Shown: positions 2,875 to 7,542 of the stretch, piece after piece
How positions within the stretch are numbered: the stretch's first letter is position 1
How the letters are laid out: each line of letters opens with the position of its first letter
NCBI RefSeq assembly: GCF_004116725.1
Contig: NZ_PDKG01000003.1
Span: forward strand, 124,001-188,000
Direction: 5' to 3'
Source of the DNA: Arcobacter sp. CECT 8986
GTDB taxonomy: Bacteria; Campylobacterota; Campylobacteria; Campylobacterales; Arcobacteraceae
Length of the DNA stretch: 64,000 bases
Notes under the pieces: model-generated
Databases searched by the model: none
Told to the model about the DNA's origin: nothing
The model's input: the letters and a program-made list of their open reading frames with translations, nothing else
Translations under genes and position numbers: made by a program

Positions 2875-4014
2875 ATGAAAAAGAATATTAGCATTATTGC
2901 TAGTTTAGCAATATTTAGCGTAACATCTGTTTTTGCAGAATCTAACTCAATAGATGAAGCATTCAAAAATGGTAAAGTAAGTGGTGATATCTCTGTTCAC
3001 TACGAAACTTGGGATAATGGAAGTAATGAAGATTATGGATTTTCAACTCCTTCTATTGGTTTAAAGTTTGAAACTGATTCTTTTAAAGGATTTAGTGCTG
3101 GTGTTGCATTTAGAGGAAATACAGAAACTTCTGAAGAAAACAATGGTGATTATGAAGATACAATGGCAGAAGATGGTGATGTAACAGAAGCATATATCCA
3201 ATATGAAAATGATATATTTGCCATAAAAGCTGGTAGACAAGAAATGGATTTAGAGTGGCTTGGTGATTACAATGATGGTGTAATTGCAGTATTAAAAGCT
3301 ATTCCATATACTACATTAACTGCTGGATATACAAATAGACAAGCTGAAATCACTTTAGATACACATGATAAATTTCACAGGTTTGAAAATAAAAAAGGTG
3401 ATGACTCAGCAGGATTTGTAATTGATGGTAAAATTGAACCTACAAAAGGTTTAGTATTTAATCCATATTTTTATACAGCTGATGACATTGCAGATTATTA
3501 TGGTCTTAAAACAACTTTTGATAATGATTTATTTGGGTTAACTGCACATTATGCACAAACAAATGAAGATAATCCAAGTGATTCAAATGATGAAGATGGA
3601 AGTATTTTAAATCTAGAAGCAAGACTTAATGTTTCTGATTTTAATTTTATGTTAGGTTATATTAAAACTGATAGTGATGGAGGAATTGGTTCTTTAGATT
3701 CACTTGGGGATAATATAGATCAAACAGAAGAGTTAACAGATGCAGTTTATGGTATTGATGCAAAATCATACTATCTTGGCGCTGCTTATACTTTTAAAGA
3801 TTTAGAAATTTCTGCACTTTATACAAATAGTAAACATGAAGTTTCAACAAAAGATGTAAAAGATAAAGAGTTAACTCTTGCCGCTTCTTACAATATTACA
3901 GAGCAATTAACAGCAGAACTTATTTATACAGATGCAAATATTGATAAAAATTCTGATTTAAATGATGGAGAAGATTTTAATAAATTTGTAGCAAACATAT
4001 CTTATAGTTTCTAA
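2875..4014 (+). CDS. Outer-membrane beta-barrel porin (Opr/major outer membrane protein type)
   Basis: A 379-residue exported protein. A Sec signal peptide spans about residues 1-21 (MKKNISIIASLAIFSVTSVFA), with cleavage after VFA. The mature part is rich in alternating aromatic/acidic strands typical of a 16-18-strand barrel and ends in the Phe required by the Bam machinery (ANISYSF). It resembles the Opr-family porins common in Arcobacter-type genomes. Substrate specificity cannot be read. Because a Fur box lies upstream and the gene has its own terminator, it is probably a monocistronic, iron-responsive porin; whether it carries an iron ligand or is a general porin is open. Confidence 0.85.
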   Translation: MKKNISIIASLAIFSVTSVFAESNSIDEAFKNGKVSGDISVHYETWDNGSNEDYGFSTPSIGLKFETDSFKGFSAGVAFRGNTETSEENNGDYEDTMAEDGDVTEAYIQYENDIFAIKAGRQEMDLEWLGDYNDGVIAVLKAIPYTTLTAGYTNRQAEITLDTHDKFHRFENKKGDDSAGFVIDGKIEPTKGLVFNPYFYTADDIADYYGLKTTFDNDLFGLTAHYAQTNEDNPSDSNDEDGSILNLEARLNVSDFNFMLGYIKTDSDGGIGSLDSLGDNIDQTEELTDAVYGIDAKSYYLGAAYTFKDLEISALYTNSKHEVSTKDVKDKELTLAASYNITEQLTAELIYTDANIDKNSDLNDGEDFNKFVANISYSF

Positions 4015-4044
4015 AACTATACTCTTTCAAATATATAGGTAAAA

Positions 4045-4073
4045 GGTTAGTGATAAAACACTAGCCTTTTTTT
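4045..4073 (+). terminator. Rho-independent terminator of the porin gene
   Basis: GGTTAGTG (4045-4052) pairs with CACTAGCC (4059-4066), with one G-U pair and a six-base loop, followed by seven T residues. It lies 31 bases beyond the porin stop codon and is a textbook intrinsic terminator. Confidence 0.9.
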
Positions 4074-4086
4074 ATTTCAACATTTT

Positions 4087-4101
4087 TGATAATAACTATC
4101 A
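4087..4101. promoter_or_regulatory. Fur box (distal) of the DUF2325-flavodoxin operon
   Basis: TGATAATAACTATCA matches the 7-1-7 consensus at 13 of 14 arm positions. It lies 53 bases upstream of a second box (4140-4154), a spacing that could allow cooperative Fur binding over the promoter. Confidence 0.75.
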
Positions 4102-4139
4102 ATATTAAACTACAATTAAGATTACTTCCTGTATTATTT

Positions 4140-4154
4140 TAATAATGATTATCA
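4140..4154. promoter_or_regulatory. Fur box (proximal) of the DUF2325-flavodoxin operon
   Basis: TAATAATGATTATCA matches the Fur consensus at 13 of 14 arm positions and is identical to the porin box. A possible -10 (TATTAT, 4132-4137) abuts it, so Fur would occlude the promoter. The first reading frame downstream is the 21-residue peptide at 4170. Confidence 0.8.
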
Positions 4155-4169
4155 TTTAAAGGATGAGAC

Positions 4170-4235
4170 ATGAATTCACACTTTGATTTAAAAAAGAAAA
4201 ATGAACTTGTAAAACCAACCGGTTGTACTTGTTAA
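4170..4235 (+). CDS. 21-residue Lys-rich peptide ending in GCTC, first gene of a Fur-box operon
   Basis: A very short frame with good gene signals: AAAGGA six bases before the ATG, a stop 17 bases before the next gene, and two Fur boxes upstream. The product has a basic middle (DLKKKNELVK) and a C-terminal KPTGCTC with two cysteines at the tail. No family was recognised. The Cys-X-Cys end could bind a metal or be a modification or processing site, or the frame could act as a leader controlling the operon; all of this is inference. Conservation in relatives would decide whether it is translated. Confidence 0.55.
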   Translation: MNSHFDLKKKNELVKPTGCTC

Positions 4236-4252
4236 AATAAGAAGGGAAAACT

Positions 4253-4579
4253 ATGAGTGTATTAATTATTGGTGGAGATAAAATTTCACAAATTTCAAGT
4301 ATGTTAGAGAACTTAGGTGCAAAAACAATAAATCATTGGGATGCTAGAAAAAAATCTTCTGCTCCAAAAAAGAAGATACCTCAAGATACAGATTGTATTA
4401 TTATGCTAACTTCATTTTTAAATCACAACACAATGTTGAAATACAAAAGTGAAGCAAAGAAAAAGGAAATCCCTTTTATTTGTGCAAAAAGAAGTGTAAA
4501 TTGTGTTTATGATGAATATATGAAAATTATGGGTATAAAAGATTGTAGTGAATGTTATGCAAATTGTGGGTGCAAATAA
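4253..4579 (+). CDS. DUF2325 domain protein with C-terminal Cys cluster
   Basis: A 108-residue protein. DUF2325 proteins have a Rossmann-like start (here SVLIIGGDKI) and a later conserved CAKRS-type segment. This one ends in CSECYANCGCK, giving four cysteines in the last eleven residues, a likely metal or Fe-S site. GAAGGG precedes the ATG. It is the second gene of the Fur-box operon with a flavodoxin downstream, suggesting a role in iron starvation or metal handling. The molecular function of DUF2325 is not established. Confidence 0.8.
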   Translation: MSVLIIGGDKISQISSMLENLGAKTINHWDARKKSSAPKKKIPQDTDCIIMLTSFLNHNTMLKYKSEAKKKEIPFICAKRSVNCVYDEYMKIMGIKDCSECYANCGCK

Positions 4580-5337
4580 TGAAGATTGATATAAAAAATG
4601 ATTTTTTAGGATTTATTGGTAATACTGAATTTTTACCAAAAGATTTTGATCAATTCACTTCAACAAAAAGATTAAGACAACTATTTTTAGTTTTAAGTAA
4701 TAACATCTTAAAAGATGCATGTACTTTTTCAAAATATGAACAAAGAAAACTATCAAATTATAGTTTAGAAAAAGCATTTACGCACAAGATTAATATGATG
4801 TTACCGAACTCATTTGTATTTATACATAAAAAAAGTTCTTCATTTAATTTTTGTAAAGATTCTACTTTAATAATAAATGCTTTTAAAAATAGAAAAAATC
4901 TTTTTATAAGTACTGCAAATAAAAAGCTATTAAATGTAGCAAGATTAATATCTTATTGTTATACAAACAATCAAATGCAAATTTTACTTGATAAAGATTT
5001 GTTATTCCATGAGTTTGTGTATCAAAAAGTTAAAAGACTTCATAAAAATAAAGAAGTTAAAGATTTGGGAAATGCAATATCTATAAAAGGAAAAGATGTA
5101 GATGCTTTAAAAATATATACATCTTGGAAAGATATAAAAACAAATCAACCAAATATAAAAGAAGAAGTAGAATATGCAATAAAAAGTATAAAAAACGAAA
5201 ATTATGCTCAAGTATATTTGGTTTATCCAAAAGCAAATGATTTTAAAAGACACATACCAGTTTATGTGGATGAATTAAAAAACGAAAACTATGTGATAAA
5301 GGCGATTCCTTATTCACTTAGATCAACAATTAGATAA
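4579..5337 (+). CDS. Uncharacterised basic protein between DUF2325 and flavodoxin
   Basis: A 252-residue soluble, Lys-rich protein. The frame is open further upstream, but the ATG at 4579 overlaps the stop of the DUF2325 gene (TAATG) and is the natural coupled start. No domain was recognised, and there is no signal peptide or membrane segment. Visible features are several phenylalanine-rich hydrophobic patches in the first 150 residues and a C-terminal segment with YLVYPKANDFKRHIPVYV. Its operon (Fur boxes, Cys peptide, DUF2325, flavodoxin) implies a part in iron starvation or in flavodoxin-dependent electron transfer, which is inference only. Confidence 0.7.
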   Translation: MKIDIKNDFLGFIGNTEFLPKDFDQFTSTKRLRQLFLVLSNNILKDACTFSKYEQRKLSNYSLEKAFTHKINMMLPNSFVFIHKKSSSFNFCKDSTLIINAFKNRKNLFISTANKKLLNVARLISYCYTNNQMQILLDKDLLFHEFVYQKVKRLHKNKEVKDLGNAISIKGKDVDALKIYTSWKDIKTNQPNIKEEVEYAIKSIKNENYAQVYLVYPKANDFKRHIPVYVDELKNENYVIKAIPYSLRSTIR

Positions 5338-5351
5338 GGAGATTTTTTTAA

Positions 5352-5849
5352 ATGGCGACAGCACTATTTTATGCAAGTAGCACTGGAAATACTGAAGAAG
5401 TAGCACAAAAAATTGCAGATAGATTACAAGGAATTGATACTTTCAATATAAGTGATAAAAGTATAGAAAATATAAACAATTATGAAAAGTTAATAATCGG
5501 TACTCCAACTTGGGGTGAAGGTGATTTACAAGATGACTGGGATGAAAAGTGGGATGAGTTTTGTTCACTTGATTTAAGTACAAAAACAATTGCACTTTTT
5601 GGTTTAGGTGACCAAGATAGCTATGGTGATGAGTTTTGTGATGCATTGGGAATAATGTATGAACAAATAGAAAAAGCTGGTGCAAATATAGTTGGTTTTA
5701 CATCAACTGATGGATATGAGCACGAGTATTCAAAAGCACAAATAGATGACAAATTTGTTGGATTAGTTATTGATGAAGATAATCAAGATGATTTAACAGA
5801 TGAAAGAATCGAAAACTGGACAAATCAAATAAAAAATGACATCTTATAA
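5352..5849 (+). CDS. fldA: Flavodoxin (first of three tandem copies)
   Basis: A 165-residue long-chain flavodoxin, an FMN electron carrier that can replace ferredoxin under iron limitation. The phosphate-binding loop is SSTGNTE (about residues 9-15). The FMN-ring loops are TPTWGEGDLQDDW (about 55-67) and GLGDQDSYGDEFCDA. It is the last gene of the Fur-box operon, 14 bases after the previous stop, and is followed by a terminator. In Campylobacterota flavodoxin also serves pyruvate:acceptor oxidoreductase. The start follows AAGGAG with a rather long 10-base spacing. Confidence 0.95.
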   Translation: MATALFYASSTGNTEEVAQKIADRLQGIDTFNISDKSIENINNYEKLIIGTPTWGEGDLQDDWDEKWDEFCSLDLSTKTIALFGLGDQDSYGDEFCDALGIMYEQIEKAGANIVGFTSTDGYEHEYSKAQIDDKFVGLVIDEDNQDDLTDERIENWTNQIKNDIL

Positions 5850-5871
5850 ATAAGCCAATTTTGGCTTATTT
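5848..5871 (+). terminator. Terminator after first flavodoxin
   Basis: AAATAAGCCAA (5848-5858) and TTGGCTTATTT (5861-5871) form an 11-pair stem beginning at the stop codon. The U-run is only TTT, so efficiency is uncertain, but the position fits the operon end. Confidence 0.65.
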
Positions 5872-5971
5872 AATTCTGCAATAAACTTCTACACTTTAAC
5901 TGAATAATTTATACTAATCTTAAATTTTTTTATCATAATATATAATAATTATAAATTTATAAGGAGCTAAC

Positions 5972-6481
5972 ATGACTACGGCAATATTTTATACAAGTCA
6001 ATGTAATCACGCAAAAGGTGTTGCAGAAAAAATTTCAAAAGCATTTGATGAGATTCGCATATTTGATATTGCAGTTACAGGTAGCGAATATATAAATGAT
6101 TTTAAACATATTATATTTGGTGTATCAACTTCAAATCATGGAGAAATGCAAAAAGATTGGCAGAAAATTTGGGATGATTTTAAAGATATCAATTTCAAAG
6201 GTAAAACTGTTGCAATTTTTGGTTTGGGTGACCAAACTAATTATCCAGATGAATTTGCAGATGCAATGAAATATGTTTATGATGACTTGCTAAAAAGTGG
6301 TGCAAATATAATTGGCTTTACATCAACTGATTCATATAACTTCAACTCATCAAAAGCAGTTATTGAAGATAAATTTGTTGGTTTAGTTATAGATGAAGTT
6401 AATCAATCACACCTTACAGATAAAAGAATTCAAGAGTGGGCAGACAAAATTAAAGAGGATTTACAACACGAGTCTTCTTAA
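5972..6481 (+). CDS. Divergent flavodoxin-like protein lacking the FMN phosphate loop
   Basis: A 169-residue flavodoxin paralogue with the same length and core as its neighbours (IFGLGDQTNYPDEFADA, DKFVGLVIDE near the end). The SSTGNTE phosphate loop is replaced by SQCNHAKG, and the TWGEGDLQDDW loop by TSNHGEMQKDW. The residues that hold FMN phosphate and cap the ring are therefore lost, although the fold appears intact and the frame is open. It may bind another cofactor or partner, or be a non-redox decoy. AAGGAG gives a good ribosome-binding site. A weak Fur-like sequence lies at 5940-5954 (11 of 14). Confidence 0.85.
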   Translation: MTTAIFYTSQCNHAKGVAEKISKAFDEIRIFDIAVTGSEYINDFKHIIFGVSTSNHGEMQKDWQKIWDDFKDINFKGKTVAIFGLGDQTNYPDEFADAMKYVYDDLLKSGANIIGFTSTDSYNFNSSKAVIEDKFVGLVIDEVNQSHLTDKRIQEWADKIKEDLQHESS

Positions 6482-6570
6482 TTTTTTATTAACAAAAAAC
6501 CGACTTTTTTTAAATAAGACATATTTTATCCTATTTCATTAAAATTACAAAAAAATATAAAGGATAATCT

Positions 6571-7074
6571 ATGGCAACTGCTATATTTTACGCAAGTAGT
6601 ACAGGAAATACAGAAGAAGTAGCAACTAAAATTGCAGAAAAACTTGATATTACTACACTTTTTAATATAAGTAACAATCAAAAAGATATAAATAAAATTT
6701 CTGAATATGACAAACTAATCTTAGCTACATCAACTTGGGGTGATGGAGATTTACAAGATGATTGGGATGAAATTTGGGAAGATTTCAAACAAATTGATTT
6801 TTCTGATAAAACAGTTGCACTAGTTGCACTTGGAGATCAAGATGGATATGATGATACATTTGTAAATTCACTTGGAACAATGTATGAACAAGTAGTTGAA
6901 CAAGGTGCAAATGTAATTGGATTTACTTCTACTGATGGTTATGATTTTGAAGAATCAACTGCTGTAAAAGATGATAAATTTGTTGGATTAGTTATTGATG
7001 AAGATAATCAAGATGATTTAACTGATGAAAGAATTGATAACTGGACAGATGAAATTAGAAGTGAAATTATTTAA
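6571..7074 (+). CDS. Flavodoxin (third tandem copy)
   Basis: A 167-residue canonical long-chain flavodoxin with the FMN phosphate loop SSTGNTE (about residues 9-15), the ring loops TSTWGDGDLQDDW and ALGDQDGYDDTF, and the same C-terminal VIDEDNQDDLTDERI as the first copy. Close similarity to the first copy suggests duplication, with the degenerate middle copy arising from the same event or an older one. It has its own 89-base upstream gap, so separate transcription is possible. It ends at a bidirectional terminator facing fur. Confidence 0.93.
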   Translation: MATAIFYASSTGNTEEVATKIAEKLDITTLFNISNNQKDINKISEYDKLILATSTWGDGDLQDDWDEIWEDFKQIDFSDKTVALVALGDQDGYDDTFVNSLGTMYEQVVEQGANVIGFTSTDGYDFEESTAVKDDKFVGLVIDEDNQDDLTDERIDNWTDEIRSEII

Positions 7075-7100
7075 ATATTAAGGATTATTCCTTAATATTT
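7073..7100. terminator. Bidirectional terminator between flavodoxin and fur
   Basis: AAATATTAAGG (7073-7083) and CCTTAATATTT (7090-7100) are exact reverse complements with a six-base loop. The element overlaps the stop codons of both convergent genes, so it probably ends both transcripts. Confidence 0.75.
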
Positions 7101-7542
7101 ATTTACTTTGACAATCTGTGCAAATTCCATATAATTGCATTGAGTGACTTGTAATTTTAAATTTATTTTTCTTTGCTATTTTATCTTGTCTTTTTTCTAT
7201 CTCATCATCTAAAAATTCTACTATTTTTCCACAAGATGTGCAAATTAAATGATCATGGTGAGATTTTGCATTACTTTCGTATTTTTTACCTTCTGTTCCA
7301 AAAGCAATAGATGCTATAAGGTCAACTTCTTCTAAAAAACCAAGAGCTCTATATACCGTAGCAATACCGATATTTGAATCAGGATATTTTTCTTTGATTT
7401 GATTATAAACTTCTTCTGCACTTAAGTGATCTTCTGCGTTTATAAGAATATCTAGAACAATTTCTCTTTGTTCTGTGTATTTCAAACCTTTTTGTTTTAC
7501 GATTTTTTTAAGTTCTTCTATTACTTCTTCATTATTTGCCAT
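7099..7542 (-). CDS. fur: Ferric uptake regulator Fur
   Basis: A 147-residue iron-responsive repressor. The winged helix lies in residues about 1-85, with recognition helix GIATVYRAL. The metal/dimer domain holds KSHHDHLICTSCGKIVEF, a distal QLYGICTDC that gives the second CXXC zinc pair, and the regulatory His/Glu residues. It matches Campylobacter Fur more closely than PerR, notably KYTEQRE and IAFGTEGKKYE. It is convergent with the third flavodoxin and is the most likely ligand of the Fur boxes nearby. A second paralogue is at 16617-17063. Confidence 0.93.
   Translation of the reverse strand: MANNEEVIEELKKIVKQKGLKYTEQREIVLDILINAEDHLSAEEVYNQIKEKYPDSNIGIATVYRALGFLEEVDLIASIAFGTEGKKYESNAKSHHDHLICTSCGKIVEFLDDEIEKRQDKIAKKNKFKITSHSMQLYGICTDCQSK

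Follow-up and report, generated by a model that had tools for sequence, protein, structure and literature searches.

Does a frame of 21 codons at the head of a Fur-box operon encode a peptide of its own, and which role could so small a product have? The question is raised by a locus of Arcobacter sp. CECT 8986, which lies in a stretch of 64,000 nucleotides that was analysed as a whole and is referred to here as the window. An earlier interpretation of the bare DNA (the sequence-only reading) had drawn attention to a tiny frame ending in GCTC and to the genes behind it, and had proposed an iron-starvation module. The explanation that we prefer, with a probability of about 0.52, is a genuine micropeptide gene, the product of which would act in trans, would be made under iron starvation and would serve as a small partner of the DUF2325 protein, with a catalytically dead McrC-fold protein and a flavodoxin as optional companions.

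Layout of the operon in the window

The 21-residue ORF at 4170-4235 with its GCTC end, its ribosome-binding site and the two Fur boxes were confirmed in the sequence. The downstream genes also proved to be those named at the outset: profile matches were obtained for the DUF2325 protein (PF10087) and the flavodoxin (TIGR01752), while the unknown protein at 4579-5337 has no Pfam match. The features of the region are:

4087-5849, plus strand: the operon in the order two Fur boxes, ribosome-binding site, peptide, DUF2325 protein, McrC-fold protein, FldA
4087-4101, plus strand: upstream Fur box, TGATAATAACTATCA, one mismatch to TGATAATNATTATCA in a 7-1-7 match
4140-4154, plus strand: second Fur box, TAATAATGATTATCA, one mismatch in a 7-1-7 match
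4158-4163, plus strand: ribosome-binding site AAAGGA of the peptide gene, read from the sequence, six bases from the ATG
4170-4235, plus strand: micropeptide gene, 21 amino acids, MNSHFDLKKKNELVKPTGCTC, ending in TGCTC followed by TAA
4253-4579, plus strand: DUF2325 protein, 108 amino acids, Rossmann/receiver-like with a Cys-rich tail (PF10087, AF2 model)
4579-5337, plus strand: putative McrC-fold pseudonuclease, 252 amino acids, the former unknown protein (AF2 model, structural match; DxK lost)
5352-5849, plus strand: long-chain flavodoxin FldA, 165 amino acids (TIGR01752)
5972-6481 and 6571-7074: two further flavodoxin genes downstream of fldA
7099-7542, minus strand: Fur-family gene after the flavodoxin genes

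The promoter thus carries two Fur boxes with one mismatch each, as expected for a member of a Fur regulon. In the entire window, ten matches with at most two mismatches were found versus 2.8 expected, and none of 100 shuffles reached ten. The second box lies 15 nt from the ATG of the peptide, a position that is kept in the relatives inspected, and it probably overlaps the transcription start. An AGGA-type site precedes the peptide gene in nearly all complete relatives, and 17 nt separate the peptide stop from the DUF2325 start in the window. FldA scores 217 bits against TIGR01752 (cut-off 146.75) and belongs to this family. It is the first of three flavodoxin genes in tandem (5352-7074) that directly adjoin the Fur-family gene. 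A leader or attenuator structure was considered and rejected, because the leader RNA (4143-4290) folds no better than its shuffles do (z -0.44) and the sole terminator-like site found in 3950-7150 precedes the operon.

Occurrence, conservation and placement of the peptide gene

The sequence-only reading had made its case dependent on conservation of the frame in close relatives, to be looked for before their DUF2325 genes, and this conservation was found. The pattern P[TS]GCTC followed by a stop matches 37 of 101 genomes of the family at one site each, whereas the reversed control pattern matches 0 of 101, and DUF2325 adjoins the peptide in all 37 matches, loci L007 and L018 included. Two further peptide-bearing genomes escape the pattern, one with PSGCTC and an AGT codon (G005) and one with a tail extended to GCTCMWGK (G010), which raises the count to at least 39 of 101. 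A search led by DUF2325, in which the peptide was not used, gave a match in 35 of 60 relatives, and 30 loci; at 17 of these loci, a short adjacent frame closes with GCTC or, in L013, has GCTC followed by four more residues. Across 397 genomes of the phylum, a different pattern yielded 20 matches: 18 real ones, namely 16 in the family plus those of G040 and G269, and two that are due to chance (L077, L078); loose patterns produced the chance matches L144 and L145. A scan of 257 Gb of genome contigs returned 24 loci, all beside DUF2325 and all from Campylobacterota, an assignment taken from the record titles and, for L091 (titled 'bacterium'), from peptide DNA identical to that of L040. Among these 24 loci, L084 shows DUF2325 in part and L093 represents the case of G116 described below. 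The distinct homologous DNA forms of the peptide amount to 42, and the form of Sulfurospirillum arcachonense (L080) is the same as that of G269; the same-genus genome G003 shares the form of the window. An ORF of G436 that ends in LLRKGCTC (L124) was not counted, since it belongs to a hemP-linked group ending in GRAC or GRPC. No family was found for the peptide in Pfam, or in NCBIfam at E 10, with 21 residues being hard for HMMER. The peptide gene family is solid and is absent from the family libraries searched.

Over 35 distinct 36-mers, pN/pS is 0.15 for the last 8 codons and 0.23 for 12 codons; the rows were selected with GCTC together with some of the LVK segment, so that the fixation of both is partly ascertainment, and the five codons outside the selecting expression give 0.36 (0.51 in the 17 DUF2325-found rows), while the Pro-Thr codons alone give 0.25 (0.27 in the 17 rows). 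Third codon positions are the most variable (permutation p 0.00056). Judged from these alignments, it is the encoded amino acids that are conserved in the frame. The peptide is 13 to 24 residues long, one row with masked bases aside; its N-terminal part varies in sequence and length, an NKxDLVKP segment is semi-conserved, and the GCTC tail is nearly always kept. The shortest form, in L089, has 9 residues ahead of GCTC. In L013, the tail runs on to GCTCMWGK, and a free C-terminus is thus non-essential there.

In Arcobacteraceae and G040, the peptide is encoded upstream of DUF2325, with a stop-to-start gap of about 9-17 nt in the 37 loci. In S. arcachonense (L080), it follows DUF2325 and is itself followed by a 64 amino acid frame, a McrC-like gene and a flavodoxin. 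The metagenome-assembled genome with locus L089 has two Fur boxes, DUF2325, a 72 amino acid protein, a short McrC-like protein and then the peptide MKKNLIKPTGCTC, which is the last gene of the operon before an intrinsic terminator at 2444-2465. In members of genus g11 that do not have the peptide (L008, L009, L140, L141, L142), a Fur box and a ribosome-binding site stand directly before DUF2325, and other members share their peptide DNA with records titled Aliarcobacter; several Aliarcobacter-like genomes have lost the peptide and kept the module. Eight changes of the peptide label are required on a 71-row tree of DUF2325, and well-supported branches force at least 4 of these; the columns of this tree are few and its branches long. 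A McrC-fold gene was not found in the peptide-bearing draft genomes G040 and G116, which leaves DUF2325 as the sole constant neighbour. The peptide gene is bound in position to DUF2325 and free of one fixed place in the operon.

Some loci deviate from this arrangement. At L093 (G116, L042), a TGA replaces the invariant Trp29 codon of DUF2325 and the peptide frame is intact; no McrC-like gene was found in the genome of G116, and no flavodoxin was seen beside its DUF2325. The peptide is missing from L113 and L022, where a different protein of about 55 amino acids (SSLLLKTRMNRIIKE.. and SDIKLKLKIDRLVLQ..) occupies the slot before DUF2325. At L108, a Cys-rich frame of about 55 amino acids (..AQSCCACSIY..) lies between DUF2325 and a 63 amino acid frame, the slot that the GCTC peptide takes in the sister lineage S. 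arcachonense.

The DUF2325 protein and its McrC-like neighbour

The protein at 4253-4579 is a member of PF10087 (E 5.7e-17, 62.1 bits, gathering cut-off 33.6). Its AF2 model (pLDDT 80.5) matches many Rossmann/receiver chains with Z 8-9.4, which is little informative, and a sequence search of the PDB revealed no relative, the best hits being chance matches to T-cell receptors (E 0.29). The four-Cys cluster noted in the sequence-only reading is present in the tail DCSECYANCGCK of the window protein, but its fourth Cys is not general: this column holds Cys in 5 of 30 rows, while the other three are found in 22 to 26 of 30. The two Cys tails are both present in the window but are not strictly coupled: G040 and G269 carry the peptide beside a DUF2325 protein without Cys tail, and many tailed DUF2325 proteins occur without the peptide. 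Complementation, in which the peptide would provide the Cys residues that DUF2325 lacks, was hinted at by G040 and G269 and dismissed as not general. DUF2325 is present in 214 of the 397 phylum genomes versus 18 real peptide matches with the pattern used; being far more widespread, it can work without the peptide. Genes that resemble feoA/feoB by eye often adjoin DUF2325 instead of a flavodoxin (L014, L017, L020, L021, L023, L029, L113 and others), and in g64 genomes (L124, L126) DUF2325 is followed by a 165 amino acid protein that looks ferritin-like by eye.

For the 252 amino acid protein at 4579-5337, no Pfam family was found at E 0.1 or 1, and no relative was detected in the PDB by sequence. 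An AF2 model calculated on 25 rows (pLDDT 87.9) has its best structural match in the McrC protein of Thermococcus gammatolerans (6ut7_G; Z 15.0, rmsd 4.2, 237 residues), with other McrBC entries at Z 8.7 to 10.1 and a Foldseek E of 2.0e-5, which places almost the entire model in the McrC fold. When its profile was compared with that of McrC proteins taken from 12 loci of relatives, E was 1.2e-5 and the probability 81%, and in this alignment the ADTKWK of true McrC stands opposite IYTSWK. At the catalytic positions of DxK, the D is replaced by Y/F/M/I and the K by S/F/N/I, with neither D/E nor K in any of the 25 rows; the protein thus lacks the catalytic residues of PD-(D/E)xK nucleases, the loss of the PD aspartate being read from the strand and not from an hhalign placement. 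In contrast to McrC of McrBC (PF10117), it has no DxK and no Pfam match, its own genome gave no PF10117 match, it is encoded in an iron operon, and no adjacent McrB was seen. With the fold predicted and DxK lost in 25 of 25 rows, it is best read as a McrC-fold pseudonuclease. A relative with 25% identity is encoded between DUF2325 and a flavodoxin in G045 (f10, L024), which belongs to another family.

A similar arrangement exists in Campylobacter jejuni, where cj1384c-cj1383c is controlled by Fur/PerR. The McrC-fold protein is probably related to Cj1383c, which we take to be a member of the same fold family, and the gene after cj1383c is presumably fldA. The two systems resemble each other in Fur-type control and in the order of DUF2325, McrC-fold relative and flavodoxin, as seen in G045; they differ in that the phylum pattern found no GCTC peptide in the family of C. 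jejuni. The pair cj1383c-cj1384c responds strongly to iron and has raised levels when fur is mutated (PMC4491227, PMC3815106), and cj1384c, a DUF2325 protein of 104 amino acids with 7 Cys, displayed the largest light-induced increase of its study (PMC9426514). The main text of a C. jejuni Ribo-seq study does not mention cj1383 or cj1384. The idea of an undescribed module therefore has to be narrowed: a Fur-controlled, iron-responsive pair has been described, and for the peptide no published description was found in the parts of the open-licence literature covered (queries on DUF2325, Fur/Arcobacter/flavodoxin, PTGCTC and Arcobacter small ORFs).

A proposed partner of DUF2325 under iron scarcity and competing explanations

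In the most likely reading, the peptide serves DUF2325 as a small, thiol-bearing partner under iron scarcity. The Fur boxes would allow the peptide to be made when iron is scarce, and its NKxDLVKP segment may dock it on DUF2325. The C-terminal Gly-Cys-Thr-Cys could then act as a Cys-X-Cys thiolate ligand for a metal or an Fe-S/iron species, or form a disulphide or persulphide; this step rests on general chemistry, by which a Cys-X-Cys tail makes a good thiolate ligand. Peptide and DUF2325 might jointly handle or sense the scarce iron, and the flavodoxin would take the place of ferredoxin.

The main rival, a cis-acting leader peptide (uORF) in which a ribosome pause on KPTGCTC-stop or on the Cys codons regulates the following gene through translation or termination, is weakened by the data and appears rather doubtful. 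It would account for the direct position of the frame before DUF2325 in the 37 pattern loci and for the concentration of conservation beside the stop codon; arrest peptides are conserved near the stop, and a sharp C-terminus with a variable N-terminus fits them, too. The expected location directly before a controlled gene is seen throughout Arcobacteraceae but not overall, because the frame is the last one before the terminator in L089 and lies internally, after DUF2325, in L080. Mobile gene order, repeated loss and the lack of RNA structure beyond chance together favour a product that acts in trans. Moreover, the codons for Cys, Thr, Pro and Gly are swapped for synonymous ones while P, T and G are kept, which argues against simple tRNA-Cys attenuation, and with Cys as last and third-last residue, both would still be inside the ribosome at the stop, where metal sensing as by an emerged CXXC should be impossible. 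Published precedents for the cis-acting model are CruR (DUF2946) of Bordetella and CutF of Rhodobacter, which are upstream frames in copper operons and share with the GCTC frame a small size, conserved Cys and a place at the head of a metal-regulated operon. Different from these, the GCTC peptide has 13-24 amino acids, no CXXC, no separate RAPP-type stall motif and its Cys at the very end, and its frame, set in an iron (Fur) context, may be located in the middle or at the end of an operon.

The modified peptide that the sequence-only reading had offered as one possibility is less likely than the thiol-bearing partner and, on the whole, improbable: a RiPP precursor, the Cys/Thr tail of which is enzymatically converted into a metallophore or cofactor, would agree with the short length, the fixed Cys/Thr core, the variable N-terminus and the iron control, but no modifying enzyme was recognised by eye among the ORFs around the 24 loci, MNIO (PF05114) and YcaO (PF02624), the two enzyme classes that the search covered, were not found in the own genome, and the L089 form offers just 9 residues before GCTC. 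Methanobactin, pearlin and bufferin are RiPP precursors that are short, Cys-ended and tied to metal limitation. The GCTC peptide has these traits as well; it differs by the missing MNIO and by having no long leader. Conservation of the frame for an RNA or DNA element (Fur operator, spacing of the ribosome-binding site or translational coupling) is very improbable. Most loci have the frame between Fur box and DUF2325, which would suit such an element, but third codon positions vary most, the length changes by whole codons, peptide-less loci retain DUF2325 with Fur box and ribosome-binding site, and the frame also occurs far from the promoter (L089, L080).

If the peptide is indeed a partner of DUF2325, a bacterial gene that ranks among the smallest conserved ones has escaped annotation, and DUF2325, including the strongly iron- and light-responsive gene of C. 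jejuni, gains a partner and a testable role; a McrC-fold pseudonuclease in an iron operon would make the iron-induced cj1383c testable, too. A bolder idea, which we hold tentatively, is that free, unmodified GCTC micropeptides of down to 13 residues supply DUF2325 with an encoded ligand of the Cys-X-Cys type or a redox cofactor in iron-starved Campylobacterota, and that a second, G[RC]xC family before hemP hints at Cys-tailed micropeptides as a general, overlooked class of the iron response. Frames of this second kind are absent from the four hemP loci of genus g35 (G290, G303, G386, G410). In the g64 loci L158, L159, L160, L162 and L163, a frame of about 24-26 amino acids ends in HRL[IL]R[SKR]G[RC][APT]C-stop, and such a second Cys-tailed frame lies directly before hemP or overlaps it in all five hemP-bearing g64 genomes, with the tail being GCTC in G436.
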